From contig NZ_CP046171.1 of NCBI RefSeq assembly GCF_011801125.1, forward strand, positions 3,968,001-4,032,000: DNA of 64,000 nt. Direction: 5' to 3'. The DNA comes from Nocardia brasiliensis (GTDB lineage Bacteria; Actinomycetota; Actinomycetes; Mycobacteriales; Mycobacteriaceae). A model generated the notes under the pieces. It did not search any database. It had not been told where the DNA came from and saw only the letters and a program-made list of their open reading frames with translations. Of this stretch, positions 8,557 to 48,327 are shown in pieces. A program made the position numbers and the translations under genes. Within the stretch, counting starts at the first letter, position 1; each line of letters starts with the position of its first letter.

Positions 8557-8590
8557 CCTTCCCACCCCGGATTCCCGCCACCCCACTTCT

Positions 8591-8667
8591 GGTCATCCGA
8601 TCACCAGGTAATGGTGGCGTTGAGCTCTCGACCGATGCCGCCACCATTACCTGGTGATCAACCGACC
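8591..8667. repeat. Stem-loop repeat family, copy A
   Basis: The arms are 21 bp and perfectly complementary (8599-8619 and 8639-8659; left arm begins GATCACCAGGTAATGGTGGC) with a 19-nt loop reading GCTCTCGACCGATGC at its end. Outer GGTC (8591-8594) and GACC (8664-8667) mark the borders. It belongs to the TCACCAGGTAA arm subtype, with copy D. Confidence 0.85.
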
Positions 8668-8787
8668 AACAACTCGAAACCCTTTGGCTTCCATTACGCC
8701 GGACCTCGTTGCGCCGCTACAACAGTCACCCACGCTCGAGGCCGTGCGACGCGTTGCGGGTGTGGACACGGACTATAGGTCCGTGGG

Positions 8788-9014
8788 CCATCCCGGACCG
8801 ACACGCACCCGAGCGCGTGCCGTATCGAGTCGACACATGCTCAAGCCCTTGCCATCCCGGACCGACACGCGCTCGAGCGATTGCCAAATCGGACCCACAC
8901 GCGCTCGAGCCTTTTGCCATGTCGGGTCGGGCACGCGCTCGAGCGATTGCCATATCGGACCCACACGCGCTCAAGTCCTTTGCCATTTCGGTCGGGCACG
9001 CGCTCGAGCCCGTG
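8788..9014. repeat. Degenerate tandem array, about seven units of 32-33 bp
   Basis: Consecutive units each start CCA and share a core CGGACC(C/G)ACACGCGCTCGAG, ending near TTG or GTG. Seven units fill 227 bp. The period is not a multiple of three, and none of the long frames crossing it looks like a real protein, so it is read as non-coding. It lies between stem-loop copies A and B. Confidence 0.75.
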
Positions 9015-9083
9015 CGGTGTGCGGGGCCCCCACACCGCCCGCGCCATGCGCGCCGCGCGGCGAGCAACACGGTTCGACTCGCA

Positions 9084-9159
9084 GGTCGGCCGATCAGGAG
9101 GAACTGGTGGCGCAAGCCTCTCGGCCGATACCGCCACCGGTCCCCCTGATCAGCCGACC
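9084..9159. repeat. Stem-loop repeat family, copy B
   Basis: The left arm 9084-9112 (GGTCGGCCGATCAGGAGGAA onward) pairs imperfectly with the right arm 9132-9159, ending CTGATCAGCCGACC. The loop 9113-9131 contains GCCTCTCGGCCGATAC. It belongs to the TCAGGAGGAA arm subtype and is less perfect than copies A, D and E. Confidence 0.8.
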
Positions 9160-9323
9160 GACTCGGCACCGCTGCGCTTCCATTGCGCGGCGCGGCGCGC
9201 CGGTATTCATCCCGCACGCCGCGCGAGGTCGGGCACGTGCCCGTGCGCCATGCGAGGTCTCCCGCTCGCCAACCGATCCAATGCGCGCCGCGCGGCGCGC
9301 GACACGCCCGGCGACGCGCTGGA

Positions 9324-9397
9324 GGGCCGTTCAGGGGGAACTGGTGGCGGAGCCCTCTCGGCCGATGCCGCCGCCAGTTCCTCCTGATCGGCCGACC
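9324..9397. repeat. Stem-loop repeat family, copy C
   Basis: The left arm 9324-9350 (TTCAGGGGGAACTGGTGGCG inside) pairs with the right arm 9368-9397 (CCGCCAGTTCCTCCTGATCG inside). The loop holds CCCTCTCGGCCGATG. The left arm lost the GATC border that the right arm keeps. The 165 bp between copies B and C is GC-rich low-complexity DNA with GCGCGCCGCGCGG-like words and no convincing gene. Confidence 0.75.
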
Positions 9398-9533
9398 ATT
9401 TCCGTGCCGCGGCCCGAGTCGAGTGCCGGGGCGCTAGCGCGCCGTGCTCGGTGAGGAAGCGGGTCGTCGGATCGGGTTCCGTCATGGGCATCGCGCAGGG
9501 TCGGCAGTGCGTACCAGTACGACACTGGGCGGG

Positions 9534-14045: not shown

Positions 14046-14110
14046 CGTGAAGGGTTGACGGAAGCACGCCGTGCCCGCGGCGATAGACACCGGATTCGTG
14101 AGGAGTGGCA

Positions 14111-14884
14111 GTGGCTGACACAGCAGGTGTGGCGGTGGTGACCGGAGCCGGGCGAGGGATCGGGCTGGCGATCGTGCGCGCACTGGTCGACAACGGATTC
14201 ACCGTGGTCGCCGGCAGTCGCACGATCACCCCACAGCTGCGCGCGGCGACTCCGGACGCGGTCGAGGTGGATCTGACCGGCGCGGACGGCTCGGTCCGCC
14301 TGATCCGCCACACGATGGACCGGCACGGCGGTATCGACCTGCTCGTCAACAATGTCGCAGGTACCTCGACCCCGGCCGGTGGCTTTCTCGCGCTCGGCGA
14401 CGACTCGTGGCAGCACACCTTTGACGCGACGCTCATGTCAACCGTTCGCACGACCAGGGCAGCGTTGCCGAGTCTGCTGCATCGGCAGGGCACGATCGTC
14501 AACATCGGCTCGATCAACGCCAGACTGCCGCAGGCGCGGTTGGTCGCCCAGTCCGCCGCGAAGGCCGCGGTGTCGAATCTCGGCAAAGCGCTCGCCGAAG
14601 AGTTCGGCGGACAAGGTCTGCGCGTGAACACGATCTCCCCCGGCCCGGTGCTCACCGACCTGTGGACGACCCCCGGCGGCCCCGGCGACACCCTCGCCCG
14701 AAAAGCGGGCGTTCCGCTCAGCGACGTCGCGGCGCAACTACCCGCGATACTGGGCATGTCCACCGGCCGATTCACCAGCCCCGAGGAGATCGCGGCCCTC
14801 GTCGTGTTCCTCGCATCCGGCCACGCGCCGAACATCAGTGGCGCGGAACTGATCATCGACGGCGGCATGCTCAAGACCCTCTAG
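14111..14884 (+). CDS. SDR family oxidoreductase
   Basis: A 257-aa short-chain dehydrogenase: VAVVTGAGRGIGLAI cofactor motif, DLLVNNVAG, NIGSIN (catalytic Ser) and a C-terminal ISGAELIIDGGM. The usual YxxxK is changed: the segment reads LVAQSAAKAAV, so the catalytic Tyr position appears to be Gln or Ser while the Lys remains. That may mean altered or lost redox activity. GTG 14111 has AGGAG at 14101-14105; GTG 14105 would sit on the ribosome site. It is divergent from and probably controlled by the MerR gene. Confidence 0.82.
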   Translation: MADTAGVAVVTGAGRGIGLAIVRALVDNGFTVVAGSRTITPQLRAATPDAVEVDLTGADGSVRLIRHTMDRHGGIDLLVNNVAGTSTPAGGFLALGDDSWQHTFDATLMSTVRTTRAALPSLLHRQGTIVNIGSINARLPQARLVAQSAAKAAVSNLGKALAEEFGGQGLRVNTISPGPVLTDLWTTPGGPGDTLARKAGVPLSDVAAQLPAILGMSTGRFTSPEEIAALVVFLASGHAPNISGAELIIDGGMLKTL

Positions 14885-14923
14885 CTCGGAACCTCGGCGA
14901 TCCTGCCGCGCCCCGACCTGGAC

Positions 14924-14996
14924 GGTCGATCACCAGGTAATGGTGGCGGCGGCCTCTCGGCCGATACCGCCACCATTACCTGGTGATCAAGCGACC
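14924..14996. repeat. Stem-loop repeat family, copy D
   Basis: The arms are perfect over 22 bp (14928-14949 and 14967-14988; GATCACCAGGTAATGGTGGC start), bordered by GGTC and GACC. The loop is GCCTCTCGGCCGATA. It starts 40 bp after the SDR stop and lies about 90 bp before the next gene. Same arm subtype as copy A. Confidence 0.87.
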
Positions 14997-15084
14997 AAGA
15001 TGCGCCACGCGCCGTACAGGCGGGGACCGGTTGCGAGATAACCGGTTCCGTCCGGTATCGCCGACCTGCGGGAGGATGCTGCCC

Positions 15085-24213: not shown

Positions 24214-24648
24214 TCAGTCCAGACAGAACTCGTTGCCTTCGACGTCCTGCATCGTCAGACACGACTCGTTCTCCTCGTCGGCCTCCAGCAGCCGCACCCG
24301 GACCGCGCCGAGCGGAATCAGCCGGGCGCATTCGGCTTCCAGCGCGGCCACGCGTTCGGCGCCGACAAGACCGGTCCCGACCCGAACATCGAGGTGCACC
24401 CGGTTCTTCACCACCTTGCCTTCCGGCACGCGCTGGAAGTACAGACGGGGGCCGACACCCGTGGGATCCTTCGCCGCGAACCAGGCATTCCGTTGCTCCG
24501 GTGGCAGCGTGCCGTTGTACTCGTCCCAGCTGGCGAACCCGTCCGGCGGTGGCGGCGCGACATACCCCAGTACCTCGCACCAGAAGCGCGCGACACGTTC
24601 GGGATCCGCGCAGTCGAAGGTGACCTGGACCTGTCTCACCGATGTCAT
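24214..24648 (-). CDS. VOC family protein (glyoxalase-like)
   Basis: A 144-aa vicinal oxygen chelate protein: VQVTFDCADPERVARFWCEVLGY opens the first betaalphabetabetabeta module, LYFQRVPEGKVVKNRVHLDV carries the usual metal or substrate region, and MQDVEGNEFCLD closes it. Members bind small molecules or metals, and many are uncharacterised. ATG 24648 has no obvious ribosome site. A second family member at 43285 and a tail relic at 54581 suggest several related genes in this genome. Confidence 0.9.
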   Translation of the reverse strand: MTSVRQVQVTFDCADPERVARFWCEVLGYVAPPPPDGFASWDEYNGTLPPEQRNAWFAAKDPTGVGPRLYFQRVPEGKVVKNRVHLDVRVGTGLVGAERVAALEAECARLIPLGAVRVRLLEADEENESCLTMQDVEGNEFCLD

Positions 24649-24809
24649 GGGATCACTTTAGGGGCGCGGGCCGCCATCACGCACATCCTTTACGCACCGA
24701 ACGCCCCTTGTCCCACAAGGAAACTGATCCGATAGGCCCGCGCATGCGGACCATTGGCGACTCGCGCATCGACGCCTCCGTCGAGCGTGAAATAACGGCG
24801 CGTCGAATT

Positions 24810-24886
24810 GGTCGATTGATCAGGAGGAAATGGTGGCGGCAGCCTCTCGGACGATGCCGCCACCATTTCCTCCTGATCGGCCGACC
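24810..24886. repeat. Stem-loop repeat family, copy E (best preserved)
   Basis: The arms are 30 bp, with 22 bp perfectly paired (24818-24839 and 24857-24878; GATCAGGAGGAAATGGTGGC start) and outer GGTCG/CGACC borders. The 17-nt loop is CAGCCTCTCGGACGATG. It lies in the divergent gap between the VOC and amidase genes, so it is not simply a terminator. Same arm subtype as B and C. Confidence 0.9.
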
Positions 24887-25092
24887 ACTTTCACCCAGCA
24901 CCCAATTCGCTGAGATATCTCTCTTATTGTGCCGAGCGGGAATTCGTGGCTTCCAGGGCGTCGTTAGGCTGCGGGTAGCGCCTTGACCTGCGGGTTGTCA
25001 AAGTTGTACGGCCGCAGCGACGTACGAAGTTCGTGACGGCGGCCGTCGTGCGTGGAATGGGACATCGACGCGACATCGGTATGGTCGCGTTC

Positions 25093-26559
25093 ATGGAGCG
25101 AAGTTTTCATTCGGCCGAACAACTTTTGACTGCACTGCGCGCGGGTGAGGTGACCTCGGTAGAGCTGACCGACGAGGCGATTACCCGGATCGAACGCGAA
25201 GACAAAACAATCAACGCGATCTGCGTGCCCGATTTCGACCGGGCCCGCGCGGCCGCGCGCCGCGCCGACGAGGCGCGGGCACGCGGCGAGTATCGACCAC
25301 TGCTCGGTCTCCCGATAACGGTGAAGGAGTGCTACAACATCGCGGGACTGCCCACCACCTGGGGCGTGCCGGAGCATCGCGACTACGTGCCCGACGAGGA
25401 CGCGCTGTCGGTGTCGCGGGTCGAGGCGGCGGGCGCGGTCGTGCTCGGAAAGACCAACGTGCCGTTCATGTTGAACGACATCCAGAGCTTCAACGACATC
25501 TACGGCACCACCAACAACCCGTGGGATCTCACTCGCACGCCGGGCGGTTCGTCCGGCGGGTCGGCGGCGGCGTTGGCGGCCGGATTCGGCGCGCTCTCCC
25601 TCGGCTCCGATATCGCCGGTTCACTGCGCACGCCCGCGCACTTCTGCGGCATCTTCGCGCACAAACCGACGCTCGGGCTGGTGGCGACCCGCGGCATGGT
25701 CCCGCCCGGCGTGCCCGCGCTGCCCGCCGATCGCGATCTCGCGGTGCTCGGCCCGATGGCGCGCACCGCCCGCGACCTCACCCTGCTGCTCGACATCATG
25801 GCCGGGCCCGATCCGCTCACCCAGGGCATCAGCTACCAGCTGGCGCTGCCGCCGACCCGCCATGAGCGCCTGGCCGACTTCCGCGTCCTGGTGCTCGACG
25901 AACATCCCGTGGTGCCGACCGGGTCCGCGGTGCGAGCCGCGCTGAACCGCGTCGCCGACGCGCTGACCGCCGCGGGGGCGCACGTGGCCCGGCACAGTCC
26001 CCTGCTGCCCGACCTCGCCGAATCCGCGACCATCTACACCCAGCTGATGGTCTCCGATGTCGCCGCCCGATATCCCGCGGACAGGTTCGAAGCGATGCGC
26101 GCCACCGCGGCCGCGCTCGACGCGCAGGACGACAGCTTTCAAGCCGTCTGGCTGCGCAGCGCGATCCTCGACCATCGCGGCTGGGTCGAGGCGAACAGCC
26201 GACGCGAACTACACCGTCAAGGGTGGCGAAACCTGTTCGCCGAGTTCGACATCGTCGTGTGCCCGATCACCCCGACCCCCGCGTTCCCGCACGACCACAC
26301 CGAACTCGACGAGCGCCGCATCACCATCGACGGCACCGACCACTCCTTCAGCGACCAGTTCGCCTGGGTCGGCGTGGCCACCATGCCCGGCCTGCCCGCC
26401 ACCGCCATCCCCGCGGATCACACCCCCGACGGCCTGCCGGTCGGCGTGCAACTCATCGGCCCGATGTTCGAGGACCGCACCCCGCTACGCCTGGCCGAAC
26501 TGCTCGAGCAGGAACTCGGCGGCTTCCGCGTCCCGCCGGGGCTGCAGCTGAACGGATAA
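25093..26559 (+). CDS. Amidase (amidase signature family)
   Basis: A 488-aa hydrolase of the amidase signature family that should hydrolyse a C-N bond. The Ser-cisSer-Lys triad is visible: Lys78 in PITVKECYN, Ser153/154 in TPGGSSGGSAAA and Ser177 in GSDIAGSLRTPAHFCG. Length is normal. ATG 25093 fits the family N-terminus (FHSAEQLLTALRAGEVTSVE); ATG 25081 and 25033 are alternatives, and none has a good ribosome site. The substrate is not predictable. A hairpin at 26681 follows. Confidence 0.93.
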   Translation: MERSFHSAEQLLTALRAGEVTSVELTDEAITRIEREDKTINAICVPDFDRARAAARRADEARARGEYRPLLGLPITVKECYNIAGLPTTWGVPEHRDYVPDEDALSVSRVEAAGAVVLGKTNVPFMLNDIQSFNDIYGTTNNPWDLTRTPGGSSGGSAAALAAGFGALSLGSDIAGSLRTPAHFCGIFAHKPTLGLVATRGMVPPGVPALPADRDLAVLGPMARTARDLTLLLDIMAGPDPLTQGISYQLALPPTRHERLADFRVLVLDEHPVVPTGSAVRAALNRVADALTAAGAHVARHSPLLPDLAESATIYTQLMVSDVAARYPADRFEAMRATAAALDAQDDSFQAVWLRSAILDHRGWVEANSRRELHRQGWRNLFAEFDIVVCPITPTPAFPHDHTELDERRITIDGTDHSFSDQFAWVGVATMPGLPATAIPADHTPDGLPVGVQLIGPMFEDRTPLRLAELLEQELGGFRVPPGLQLNG

Positions 26560-41797: not shown

Positions 41798-43006
41798 ATG
41801 GAAGAGCGGTCCGCGGTGGTCGCCGTGCCGGAGTCAGTACGTGACGAGCTACGCCGTGGTGTGCGCAGCGTGCTGGTGGACGCGGCGGCGTTGCGGTTGG
41901 TGCGCGAACGGTTCGACGACGTGCAGGCCGGGTCGCTGCGGCGATATCTCGAGGCCTCACAGTCGGCGAACACGTTGCGCGCGTATCGAACCGATTGGAT
42001 CGCCTGGTCGGCGTGGTGTCTGGCCGAGACGAGGCAGGCGATGCCCGCCGACCCGCTCGATGTGGCGGTGTATCTCGCGGCCGCGGCCGACGCGCGCCGC
42101 GACACCGGCGGCTGGGCGTTCAGCGCCGCGACGCTGGAACGGAAGTCGGCCGCCATCGCGGCCGTGCACGCCGCCAACGGGCTGCCCTCGCCGACCCGAT
42201 CCGATGTCGTCCGCCTGACCCTGCGCGGCATCCGGCGCACCCGCCGCACCCAGCCGACCCGCAAACGCCCGGTCCTGTTGCACACTCTCGACCAACTGCT
42301 GGCAGGCCTGCCCGAACCCGGCTGGCCCACCGAACCGGCCCGCCGCCGTGACGCGCTCATGCTGCTGGTCGGCTTCGCGGGCGCGCTGCGCCGCAGTGAG
42401 CTGGCGGGCCTGCGGGTCGCCGACGTGGAGGTCCGCGTCGATCACGCCACCGGCGAACCGGTGCTGCTTGTGCGCTTGCCGTCGACGAAAACCGACCCCA
42501 CCGGCGTTGCCGAACAGCGGGTCGCGTTGCCGCGCGGTCAGCGCCCGCACACCTGCCCCGTATGCGCCTTCGCCGATTGGGTGCGGTTGCTCGAAATACA
42601 CACCGCCGAAGGCACTTCGGGCCTGCGCGCATGGCTCGCCGACGGCGCGGGCACCGATCCGGCACTGCACCGCTGCCACGGCTTCACCGGCACCGCAATG
42701 GCCGCCGACCCCGACCTTCCGTTGTGCCCCACCATCAATCGGCACGGCACGATCGCCACGACGCCGATGTCGGGCCGCGCCGTCGCCGAACTCGTCAAAC
42801 GCTACGCCGCCCGCGCCGGCCTGGACCCCGACCTGTTCTCCGGCCACTCCCTGCGCGCCGGTTTCGCCACCCAGGCCGCCCTCGGCGGCGCCAGCGACCG
42901 CGAGATCATGCGCCAGGGCCGCTGGTCCAACCCGCGCACCGTACACGGCTACATCCGCACAGCGAATCCGTTGGAAGACAACGCGGTAACCAAACTCGGG
43001 CTGTAG
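41798..43006 (+). CDS. Tyrosine recombinase (site-specific integrase)
   Basis: A 402-aa tyrosine recombinase. The N-terminal SAM-like DNA-binding part reads SLRRYLEASQSANTLRAYRTDW. The catalytic set is complete: Arg in GALRRSEL (near 197), Lys in PSTKTD, GHSLRAG (His350, Arg353), RQGRW and the nucleophile Tyr in VHGYIR (near 385). ATG 41798 has AGGGAG. No tRNA, excisionase or phage gene adjoins it, so it looks like a solitary integrase or relic of an element. A 96-residue insert before the catalytic Arg box is unusual. Confidence 0.92.
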   Translation: MEERSAVVAVPESVRDELRRGVRSVLVDAAALRLVRERFDDVQAGSLRRYLEASQSANTLRAYRTDWIAWSAWCLAETRQAMPADPLDVAVYLAAAADARRDTGGWAFSAATLERKSAAIAAVHAANGLPSPTRSDVVRLTLRGIRRTRRTQPTRKRPVLLHTLDQLLAGLPEPGWPTEPARRRDALMLLVGFAGALRRSELAGLRVADVEVRVDHATGEPVLLVRLPSTKTDPTGVAEQRVALPRGQRPHTCPVCAFADWVRLLEIHTAEGTSGLRAWLADGAGTDPALHRCHGFTGTAMAADPDLPLCPTINRHGTIATTPMSGRAVAELVKRYAARAGLDPDLFSGHSLRAGFATQAALGGASDREIMRQGRWSNPRTVHGYIRTANPLEDNAVTKLGL

Positions 43007-46769: not shown

Positions 46770-46985
46770 TCAGTACCGGAGTTCGCCGGTGTAGTCGCTG
46801 GGGTGAACGACGATGTAGTGGGAGTCCCCGATGGACCGGTCTCGGTACGCGATGACCTTGTCCTGCAACCGATTTCATTGCGTGAGCTGCTTCTCGATCA
46901 GCTCGGGAGCCTGGGTCCATCGACTCGGGCGGGCGAATCTGAACACGTTCACCACCATGTAGCCGATCTCGTTGCCGTCGATCAC
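46770..46985 (-). pseudogene. Small gene interrupted by an in-frame TGA
   Basis: On the minus strand from GTG 46985 the frame reads MIDGNEIGYMVVNVFRFARP and on to KQLTQ, then TGA at 46877-46875, and continues in the same frame NRLQDKVIAYRDRSIGDSHY, then IVVHPSDYTGELRY to TGA at 46772-46770. Both halves look like one protein. Restoring CGA (Arg) would give an intact 71-residue protein. It is either a nonsense-mutated gene, a sequence error or recoding. No upstream longer frame exists (TAA at 47000). Confidence 0.6.
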
Positions 46986-47079
46986 GCCGATATCCGCTTA
47001 CGCCACCATGCACCCATTCGACCGTCCGTCGGGTGTCGGCCTCGTGGACTCTGCGGGAGGCAAGCCACATACTGCTCGG

Positions 47080-47829
47080 GTGAGCGATCTTGTGGTGCGG
47101 ACCGAGGGAGCTGGGCCGCCGGTGGCGCTGGTGCACGGCGGCGCGGGCCCGAAATCGACTTGGGCAGGGCTGGATTCACTCGCCGACCGCTGGACGGTGC
47201 TGCAGGTGTACCGGCGCGGCTACGACCCGAGCCCGCCCCCGCCCAACGGTCACCAAGACTTCCTGGTCGACGCCGCCGACCTCACCGCGCTCTTCCGCAC
47301 CCACCGCCCACACGTGGTCGCTCACTCCTACGGGACGCTGGGCGCGGTACTGGCCGCGGCGGCCGACCCGCGTACCGTCCGTTCCCTGACCCTCATCGAA
47401 CCACCGCTGTATGTCGTCGCCCCCGACGATCCCGAGGTGGTTCATCTCGAACGCCTCGGCGACGCGGTCCTCACCCACGGCCTCGACGCCGACCCGGAGG
47501 TGCTGCGCGAATTTCTCGCACTCTCGGGCGCACCCGGCGTCGACGCGGCCCAACTCCCGGACCCGGTGGTCGCCTCCGTCCGTCGCGCATTGGGCGCCCG
47601 CCTGCCCGGCGAAGCCCATCCCGACTGGTCCGCGTTGCGCGCCGCCGAAATACCCACCCTGGTAGCTTCCGGCGGGCACACCCCCGCGCTCGAGCGAATC
47701 TGCGACGCACTCGCCGAGGTAACACACGCTCAGCGCCTCATCGCCCCCGGCGCAGGCCACTTCGTCGCCGCCGCCCCCGGTTTCGCCGACCAACTCGCCC
47801 ACTTCCTCGCCGCACACGACGCCCGATAG
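47080..47829 (+). CDS. Alpha/beta hydrolase
   Basis: A 249-aa hydrolase: PPVALVHGGAGPKSTWAGL oxyanion region, YDPSPPPP, HVVAHSYGTLGAVLAAA with the nucleophile Ser, and a C-terminal GAGHFVAAAPGF with the His. GTG 47080 fits the family start, with CGGGAGG a little upstream; the longer frame is unsupported. Substrate unknown. Stem-loop copy F starts 36 bp downstream. Confidence 0.9.
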   Translation: MSDLVVRTEGAGPPVALVHGGAGPKSTWAGLDSLADRWTVLQVYRRGYDPSPPPPNGHQDFLVDAADLTALFRTHRPHVVAHSYGTLGAVLAAAADPRTVRSLTLIEPPLYVVAPDDPEVVHLERLGDAVLTHGLDADPEVLREFLALSGAPGVDAAQLPDPVVASVRRALGARLPGEAHPDWSALRAAEIPTLVASGGHTPALERICDALAEVTHAQRLIAPGAGHFVAAAPGFADQLAHFLAAHDAR

Positions 47830-47865
47830 GAGCCCGACCCGCGACGCGAGCCCCAGCACCGAGCC

Positions 47866-47943
47866 GGTCACCCGATCAGGAGGAAACTACGGCGGCATCC
47901 GCCGAGAAGCCCCCGCCACCAGTTCCCCCTGATCAACCGCCCA
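47866..47943. repeat. Stem-loop repeat family, copy F (inverted orientation)
   Basis: The arms are degenerate: left 47866-47895 (GGTCACCCGATCAGGAGGAA start), right about 47912-47942 (CCACCAGTTCCCCCTGATCA inside). The loop CATCCGCCGAGAAGCC is the reverse complement of the usual CAGCCTCTCGGCCGATG form, so this copy points the other way. It sits next to a GC-rich minisatellite. Confidence 0.75.
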
Positions 47944-48168
47944 GCGCGTCGAGCGCGCGTGTCGCGCCACACGAGCGAGTAGACGCCCGCCGCGTGCCGC
48001 AGAGCGCGCGGCACGAACGCGCGGCGGGCGCGCCGCGTACCGCGAAGAGGGCGGAGCGCAAGAGGGCACGGCGCTGTGCGGCGCACCGAGCGTCTGATGC
48101 AGAGCGCACGCCCAATAAGGCCCGGAGCCTATGGCACAGGGGCGGGCACGCGCCTCGACAATGGCCCC

Positions 48169-48327
48169 CTGGCGCGAGGCGCGCATGCCCCCGGGGCAGG
48201 GCGCGCATGCCCCCTGGCGCGAGGCGCGCATGCCCCCTGGCGCGAGGCGCGCATGCCCCGGGGCAGGGCGCGCATGGCCCATGGGGCGAGGCGCGCATCA
48301 CCCACGGGGCAAGGCACAGAATGCATG
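48169..48327. repeat. GC-rich minisatellite, about seven units of 21-23 bp
   Basis: Units alternate CTGGCGCGAGGCGCGCATGC and GGGGCAGGGCGCGCATGC types, seven in 159 bp. Frames crossing it encode only low-complexity Arg/Pro/Ala stretches, so it is read as non-coding. The 47944-48168 stretch is GC-rich and poor in protein-like frames too. Confidence 0.75.

Follow-up and report, generated by a model that had tools for sequence, protein, structure and literature searches.

An 81-nt hairpin present in six copies in a 64,000-nt stretch of the Nocardia brasiliensis chromosome (hereafter the window; G000:C1:3968001-4032000, part of a single 7,949,490-bp contig) belongs to a dispersed family whose members also flank nuclease genes elsewhere in the same genome, G000. 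A preliminary description of this stretch had recognised the repeat family; the nuclease genes lie outside the window and were beyond its view. The association of gene and hairpin is directly visible in the genomes, and from it we infer that the nuclease moves the hairpins. The elements are probably repetitive extragenic palindrome (REP)-like mobile hairpins of a system resembling a REPtron, with a Vsr-like nuclease in place of the HUH transposase and each hairpin family tied to its own gene.

Two paralogous G000 genes carry a window-type hairpin at one or both ends, and the homologue in N. vulneris (G008) and in G017 has hairpins at both ends as well. The encoded protein joins an AbiEi-like N-terminal half to a C-terminal DUF559 domain, which is predicted to adopt the catalytic fold of the Vsr and EDxHD homing endonucleases. 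Residues E181, E185, D218, H235, and D245 are invariant (32 of 32) and form a putative active site that may correspond to that of the EDxHD enzymes. TALE-repeat matches of the profile in the PDB contained no passing stretch and were taken as artefacts. Pfam still enters DUF559 as a domain of unknown function. The upstream hairpin ends some 35-160 nt before the start codon, and the downstream hairpin usually overlaps the stop codon or begins within ~35 nt after it.

This arrangement is not confined to N. brasiliensis. In named genomes a scan found 79 loci, distributed over Nocardia, Antrihabitans, Mycobacterium/Mycolicibacterium, Tomitella, and additional genera, and flanks were compared for 53 of them, 52 having both flanks long enough. 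With the 99th percentile of 940 cross-locus pairs as the threshold, the upstream and downstream flanks shared a stretch at 21 of these 52 Mycobacteriales loci (18 direct, 3 inverted), and none of 411 control positions in the same loci reached the score, in a test that used approximate gene ends and recovered the same 21 loci. The matching stretches mostly fold as hairpins, that at L197 not clearly so. Their arms vary between loci; a loop containing CTCG is seen repeatedly in Nocardia, Tomitella, and Antrihabitans, and mycobacterial loops differ. An enzyme gene flanked by its own repeats is the configuration of REPs and REPtrons, here with another enzyme. Separately, homologues L118, L127, L135, L143, L152, and L175 are situated at contig ends, which is where they would fall if flanking repeats interrupt draft assemblies.

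The pairing is repeated with other hairpins in other paralogues and genera. The flank hairpin of N. cyriacigeorgica has 26 matches in its own genome (22 places, two of them beside the gene) and none in G000; it also matches N. abscessus (5), N. amamiensis (2), and N. altamirensis (3), with 0 matches in Antrihabitans, and paired arm changes occur among the copies compared (19 of 22). Dispersal of the M. rhodesiae hairpin is slight: its own genome has it at 5 places and strain shizuoka-1 at 4, two of these adjoining the gene in either case, and four other genomes searched have none. A third, distant G000 paralogue (L379; 5070247-5071423, match at 5070362; profile E value 3.7e-29), the tested stretch of which had no Pfam match, bears a very different hairpin on both sides in inverted orientation. 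That hairpin occurs at 8 places in G000 and 15 in N. vulneris, two flanking the gene in each, and at 6 in G017, with none in G011 or G005. Three Tsukamurella relatives at 27-33% identity each pass the flank test, and the stretch differs in every case; two of the stretches are clear hairpins, and the one hairpin searched for was found at 16 places in 7 records.

Within the window, all six copies that had been proposed were found, five on the + strand and a degenerate one on the - strand (Table 1). The flagged element itself is genuine, with limits somewhat wider than the 24810-24886 first assigned. Its arms, inner stem, and asymmetric loop are as originally described, and alignment of the window copies shows invariant blocks in each of these parts. 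The GGTC..GACC borders, in contrast, were incomplete: the foot reads CTGG(A/T)C...G(A/T)CCAG, then comes a 4 x 4 nt stretch with weak pairing (positions 7-10 with 72-75), and one copy is inverted. All six copies fold far better than dinucleotide shuffles (z -4.8 to -11.5; 0 of 200 shuffles equal). Among 50 distinct in-register copies, the level of pairing was equalled by 0 of 500 shuffles, and the pairs 16-66, 17-65, 21-61, and 23-59 change both partners (for 17-65, 34 C-G versus 16 G-C). The loop is nearly invariant: across 106 distinct copies drawn from two genomes, conservation of the CTCG, CGAT, and GCC positions is 90% or higher; copies that share descent inflate these pairing and conservation counts. 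Two arm types dominate in G000, CCAGGTAA in 33 of 66 copies and GGnGGAA in 29, with 4 having neither. Copies 2163199 and 6673557 of G000 and C3:101564 of G008 have the same core with different outer arms (CCAAGATCA...), and the first two share 240 nt of flank at 97% identity. No named family emerged, in agreement with the preliminary description: no Rfam family reached its gathering score across the whole window, and none was found in the literature searched.

A covariance-model search of genome and genus had been suggested at the outset. The model, built from the six window copies and run on both strands at E <= 0.01, gave 128 two-strand matches in the 7.95-Mb chromosome, representing at least 66 distinct places; this number is a lower bound because 150 of 8416 first-look candidates were scored. 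Blastn with only the flagged copy as query yielded 76 two-strand matches in G000. At E <= 1e-7 with stricter filters, the model matched 9 of 36 same-genus genomes (its own included), with between 5 and 77 matches per genome, and none of 24 genomes from other genera of the order. Clustered copies in G000 near 2667, 3977, 4940, and 5162 kb have flanks that share a second GC-rich repeat of ~60-80 nt.

Hairpin copies insert, since the N. vulneris copy C35:252452 has an empty site in N. brasiliensis. This copy is an insertion of ~85 bp immediately past a stop codon; the site is uninterrupted in N. brasiliensis NBRC 14402, with no target duplication seen, and holds 4 other bases in N. brasiliensis IFM 10847, 14 unalignable bases in G017, and about 47 in G000. 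The proposed comparison of orthologous flanks, applied to the flagged copy, showed it to be missing from the corresponding gap in N. vulneris and two N. brasiliensis genomes. The entire gap there is ~300 bp shorter, and thus it is not a clean empty site. Indels of 72 and 538 nt were also seen near other sites of L279.

If the nuclease moves the hairpins, it may recognise the conserved loop and the internal loop of the element, either extruded or single-stranded, and cut at the hairpin foot or at the target. During repair the hairpin, and sometimes the whole hairpin-gene-hairpin unit, would be copied into the break; solo copies would then be non-autonomous passengers, much as REPs are relative to RAYTs. 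Such repair capture would explain the absence of target duplication. Mycobacteriales encode Ku/LigD end joining, which would fit junctions that lack a target duplication. On a broader scale, we see an even chance that a widespread class of mobile hairpins in Mycobacteriales depends for its propagation on AbiEi-Vsr (EDxHD/DUF559) nucleases rather than on HUH transposases, with every such nuclease recognising its own hairpin partly via the apical loop, and the hairpin-gene-hairpin unit as the autonomous form. If so, other orphan REPs, such as those of the CGTC type, may likewise owe their movement to DUF559 proteins.

Several points weigh against movement by the nuclease. Rejoining would have to be left to host repair, because a PD-(D/E)XK nuclease by itself does not rejoin DNA. 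The only hairpin directly at paralogue P0001 is at its 3' end, the next one lying ~700 bp upstream. Thirty-one of the 52 loci fail the two-sided test: they have one hairpin, two diverged hairpins, no hairpin, or a contig end. A further 26 of the 79 loci, most of them short or weak matches with few exceptions, stood outside the flank comparison. Among the relatives, no matching flank pair was found at L380 (G000), L381 (G022), L385 (G009), or L383 (a fragment in G028); L379 and L382 (G025) have such a pair, as does L384 (G028) below the threshold. Matching of paralogue to arm type is also weak. N. vulneris, whose sole gene of this clade is P0001-like, carries 39 CCAGGTAA, 14 GGnGGAA, and 7 other arms at 60 of ~69 places, and its ratio of 39:14 compares with 33:29 in G000 (p 0.033).

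Co-occurrence of gene and hairpin is likewise imperfect. Across the 36 same-genus genomes, the window (R1-type) hairpin and a full gene occur together in 5, the hairpin without a full gene in 4, a full gene without the hairpin in 3, and neither in 24 (Fisher p 0.013). The 9 hairpin genomes divide into 5 with a full gene, 1 with a fragment (G028), and 3 with none at comparable score, and the 27 genomes without the window hairpin include 3 full genes and 1 fragment (G018). Hairpins without the gene could be relics or reflect gaps in draft assemblies. As for the gene-only genomes, G025 has another flanking pair, none was found in G022, and the G006 gene is at a contig end. The G006 and G025 genes are not regarded as broken, since the stops in their matches, at residues 290 and 291, are where the proteins naturally end. 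Plasmids or phages were rejected as carriers of the P0001 clade, with no match in 72,556 plasmid records (E <= 1e-20) or 50,697 phage records (E <= 1e-10). At E <= 0.01, seven plasmid records held remote relatives, including three from Tsukamurella that were examined; gatA and purB adjoin the gene in two of them, and so these look like pieces of chromosome.

The main alternative is that the nuclease only uses the hairpins as binding sites, for example for autoregulation via its AbiEi-like half or as structures that are cut or protected, and that another agent spreads them. We consider this unlikely. A 3' hairpin that overlaps the last codons or sits close past the stop would be oddly placed for an operator, and several gene-hairpin pairs of unlike sequence are each dispersed. 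A RAYT/Y1 transposase was rejected as the mobiliser: Y1_Tnp (PF01797) had 0 matches in G000 at E <= 0.01, in a search that matched 6 of 14 control genomes in identical form and did not extend to other transposase classes.

The placement of the copies bears on a second alternative, in which the hairpins are host elements under selection (bidirectional terminators, mRNA 3' ends, or chromosome-structure sites) and those near nuclease genes are part of that use. According to a rough open reading frame (ORF) proxy, 18 of the 66 copies lie in tandem gaps, 15 in convergent gaps, 1 in a divergent gap, and 2 inside ORFs, with 30 unresolved; with 2 of 36 resolved copies inside ORFs, the family is dispersed, palindromic, and mostly intergenic, as REPs are. 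The same proxy puts 27 of 66 copies no more than 40 nt from a stop codon, in keeping with a host role, as is the presence of 12 of 66 copies within 100 kb of the genome midpoint, where 1.7 were expected. This cluster (3.887-4.016 Mb, including the window) holds 8 of 52 groups in 130 kb once neighbours are collapsed (p 0.0004), for a region picked post hoc. It would be near the replication terminus, because the ORF at position 1 of G000, by eye, is presumably dnaA. No replication-strand bias is claimed: 42 of 66 copies in G000 (p 0.036) became p 0.17 with neighbours collapsed, and N. vulneris gave 35 of 60 (p 0.25).

The copies had been judged not to be ordinary terminators, in part because the gaps they occupy include a divergent one. 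The flagged copy does lie in such a gap, but with a single divergent copy by the proxy, and a placement like that of known REPs, that argument is weak. The judgement itself is supported, and the sequence after the stem lacks the T run of an intrinsic terminator: of 48 full-length copies, 1 has TTTT within the next 12 nt and 0 are preceded by AAAA, which also tells against a host role. The same is true of the patchy occurrence in the genus, the insertion polymorphism, and the flagged gap without a hairpin in three relatives. Furthermore, the hairpin sequence changes from one nuclease gene to another, yet both sides of one gene match. Selection for a host function is a decidedly improbable account.

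Least probable is that the hairpins are miniature inverted-repeat transposable elements derived from an ordinary DDE insertion sequence, itself not recognised in complete form. The elements are short, palindromic, dispersed, and able to insert, but flanking duplications show no clear excess in the 48 full-length copies (0 of 5, 6, or 8 nt; 1 of 4 nt at a single offset, against 0.15 expected), and the empty site shows none. Compensatory changes in the arms all along the stem would be unexpected for terminal repeats alone. The nuclease gene stands out among shared flanks, one other shared flank being the 240 nt beside 2163199 and 6673557, as judged by flank comparison alone, with no genome search aimed at DDE families.

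Among known systems, the IS200/IS605 insertion sequences also have hairpins that bracket an enzyme gene and leave no target duplication, but theirs is a HUH Y1 enzyme, of a kind not found in G000. REPtrons, as portrayed in passages of PMC8266576 and PMC3733652, combine REP hairpins with the RAYT/TnpA-REP Y1 HUH transposase. The Nocardia system resembles the accounts given there in its short hairpin repeats at many places; in recognition through a loop or bulge, which here would be presumed; in an enzyme gene that has its own repeats on both sides, at times running into its 3' end; in several family-specific pairs per genome; and in a location mainly between tandem or convergent genes. It differs in that the enzyme is a predicted Vsr/EDxHD-fold nuclease with an AbiEi-like half rather than a HUH transposase, that no Y1_Tnp was found in G000, and that the foot of the 81-nt element lacks an unpaired GTAG or CGTC tag. 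Because the enzyme differs, we do not file it as a REPtron. The CGTC-tagged REPs, mostly alphaproteobacterial and dispersed, "apparently lack a dedicated transposase" in the relevant section of PMC3733652; unlike the window family, they are described there as having 8-9 bp stems and a tag at the foot, and as belonging to other phyla.

On the enzyme side, the EDxHD homing endonucleases include I-Bth0305I (PDB 3r3p) and are named as a family in a passage of PMC6083498, and a DUF559 gene discussed among inteins is placed with them in part of PMC9403480. The present gene is unlike these in being flanked by dispersed hairpins and encoding an AbiEi-like N-terminal half, and we noticed no intron, intein, or split gene. 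Caulobacter VsrA, a Vsr-like DUF559 protein, shares the fold predicted for the C-terminal domain here; PMC12907096 attributes to it a role in the DNA damage response and, unlike what is considered here, proposes T:G mismatch repair, and the main text of that paper does not use the word "repeats." No earlier report of such a hairpin family or nuclease-hairpin pairing was found in the open-access literature, an absence that is no proof. By title and opening of the abstract, no DUF559 paper concerned dispersed repeats and none retrieved with "palindromic" was relevant; nor was any listed title on REPs or miniature inverted-repeat elements in Nocardia.

Bacterial genomes commonly contain REP repeats, and their movement has been ascribed, as a proposal, to the HUH transposase RAYT; in a published survey, one of two large REP groups was left with no enzyme at all (PMC3733652). 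Here, hairpins of unlike sequence are paired repeatedly with a nuclease of very different predicted fold, so that the question of how such repeats spread becomes directly testable. These results suggest a previously unrecognised repeat-enzyme pairing by which small repeats spread in bacteria, offer a candidate role for some DUF559 proteins, and supply ready-made enzyme-hairpin pairs for comparison.

Table 1. Copies of the 81-nt hairpin in the window, and the loop of the flagged copy (window coordinates).
Feature	Position	Strand	Context
Hairpin copy, CCAGGTAA-arm subtype	8589..8669	+	3' of Proton_antipo_M-domain gene ending 8511
Hairpin copy	9082..9162	+	Gap shared with copy 8589; model match 1 nt short
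Hairpin copy	9319..9399	+	Gap shared with copy 8589
Hairpin copy, CCAGGTAA subtype	14918..14998	+	33 nt past stop of short-chain dehydrogenase gene (14105-14884)
Hairpin copy, GGAGGAA-arm subtype (flagged)	24808..24888	+	Divergent gap: 144-aa ORF (24214-24648, -) / amidase gene (ORF 25033-26559, +)
Apical loop and closing bases of flagged copy	24838..24858	+	CTCG, CGAT, GCC positions at least 90% conserved (106 copies, two genomes)
Hairpin copy, degenerate, inverted	47864..47944	-	34 nt past alpha/beta-hydrolase gene (46972-47829)

The gene that ends before the first copy appears, by position, to be nuoN-like. Between copies 8589 and 9082 lies a tandem array (8782-9009) with units of ~32-33 nt (CACGCGCTCGAGC..TTGCCAT), and beside the degenerate copy there is a GC-rich tandem array (48166-48315) with a period near 23 nt. 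The sole tRNA detected in the window is a tRNA-Arg gene (anticodon gcg) at 41857-41931.
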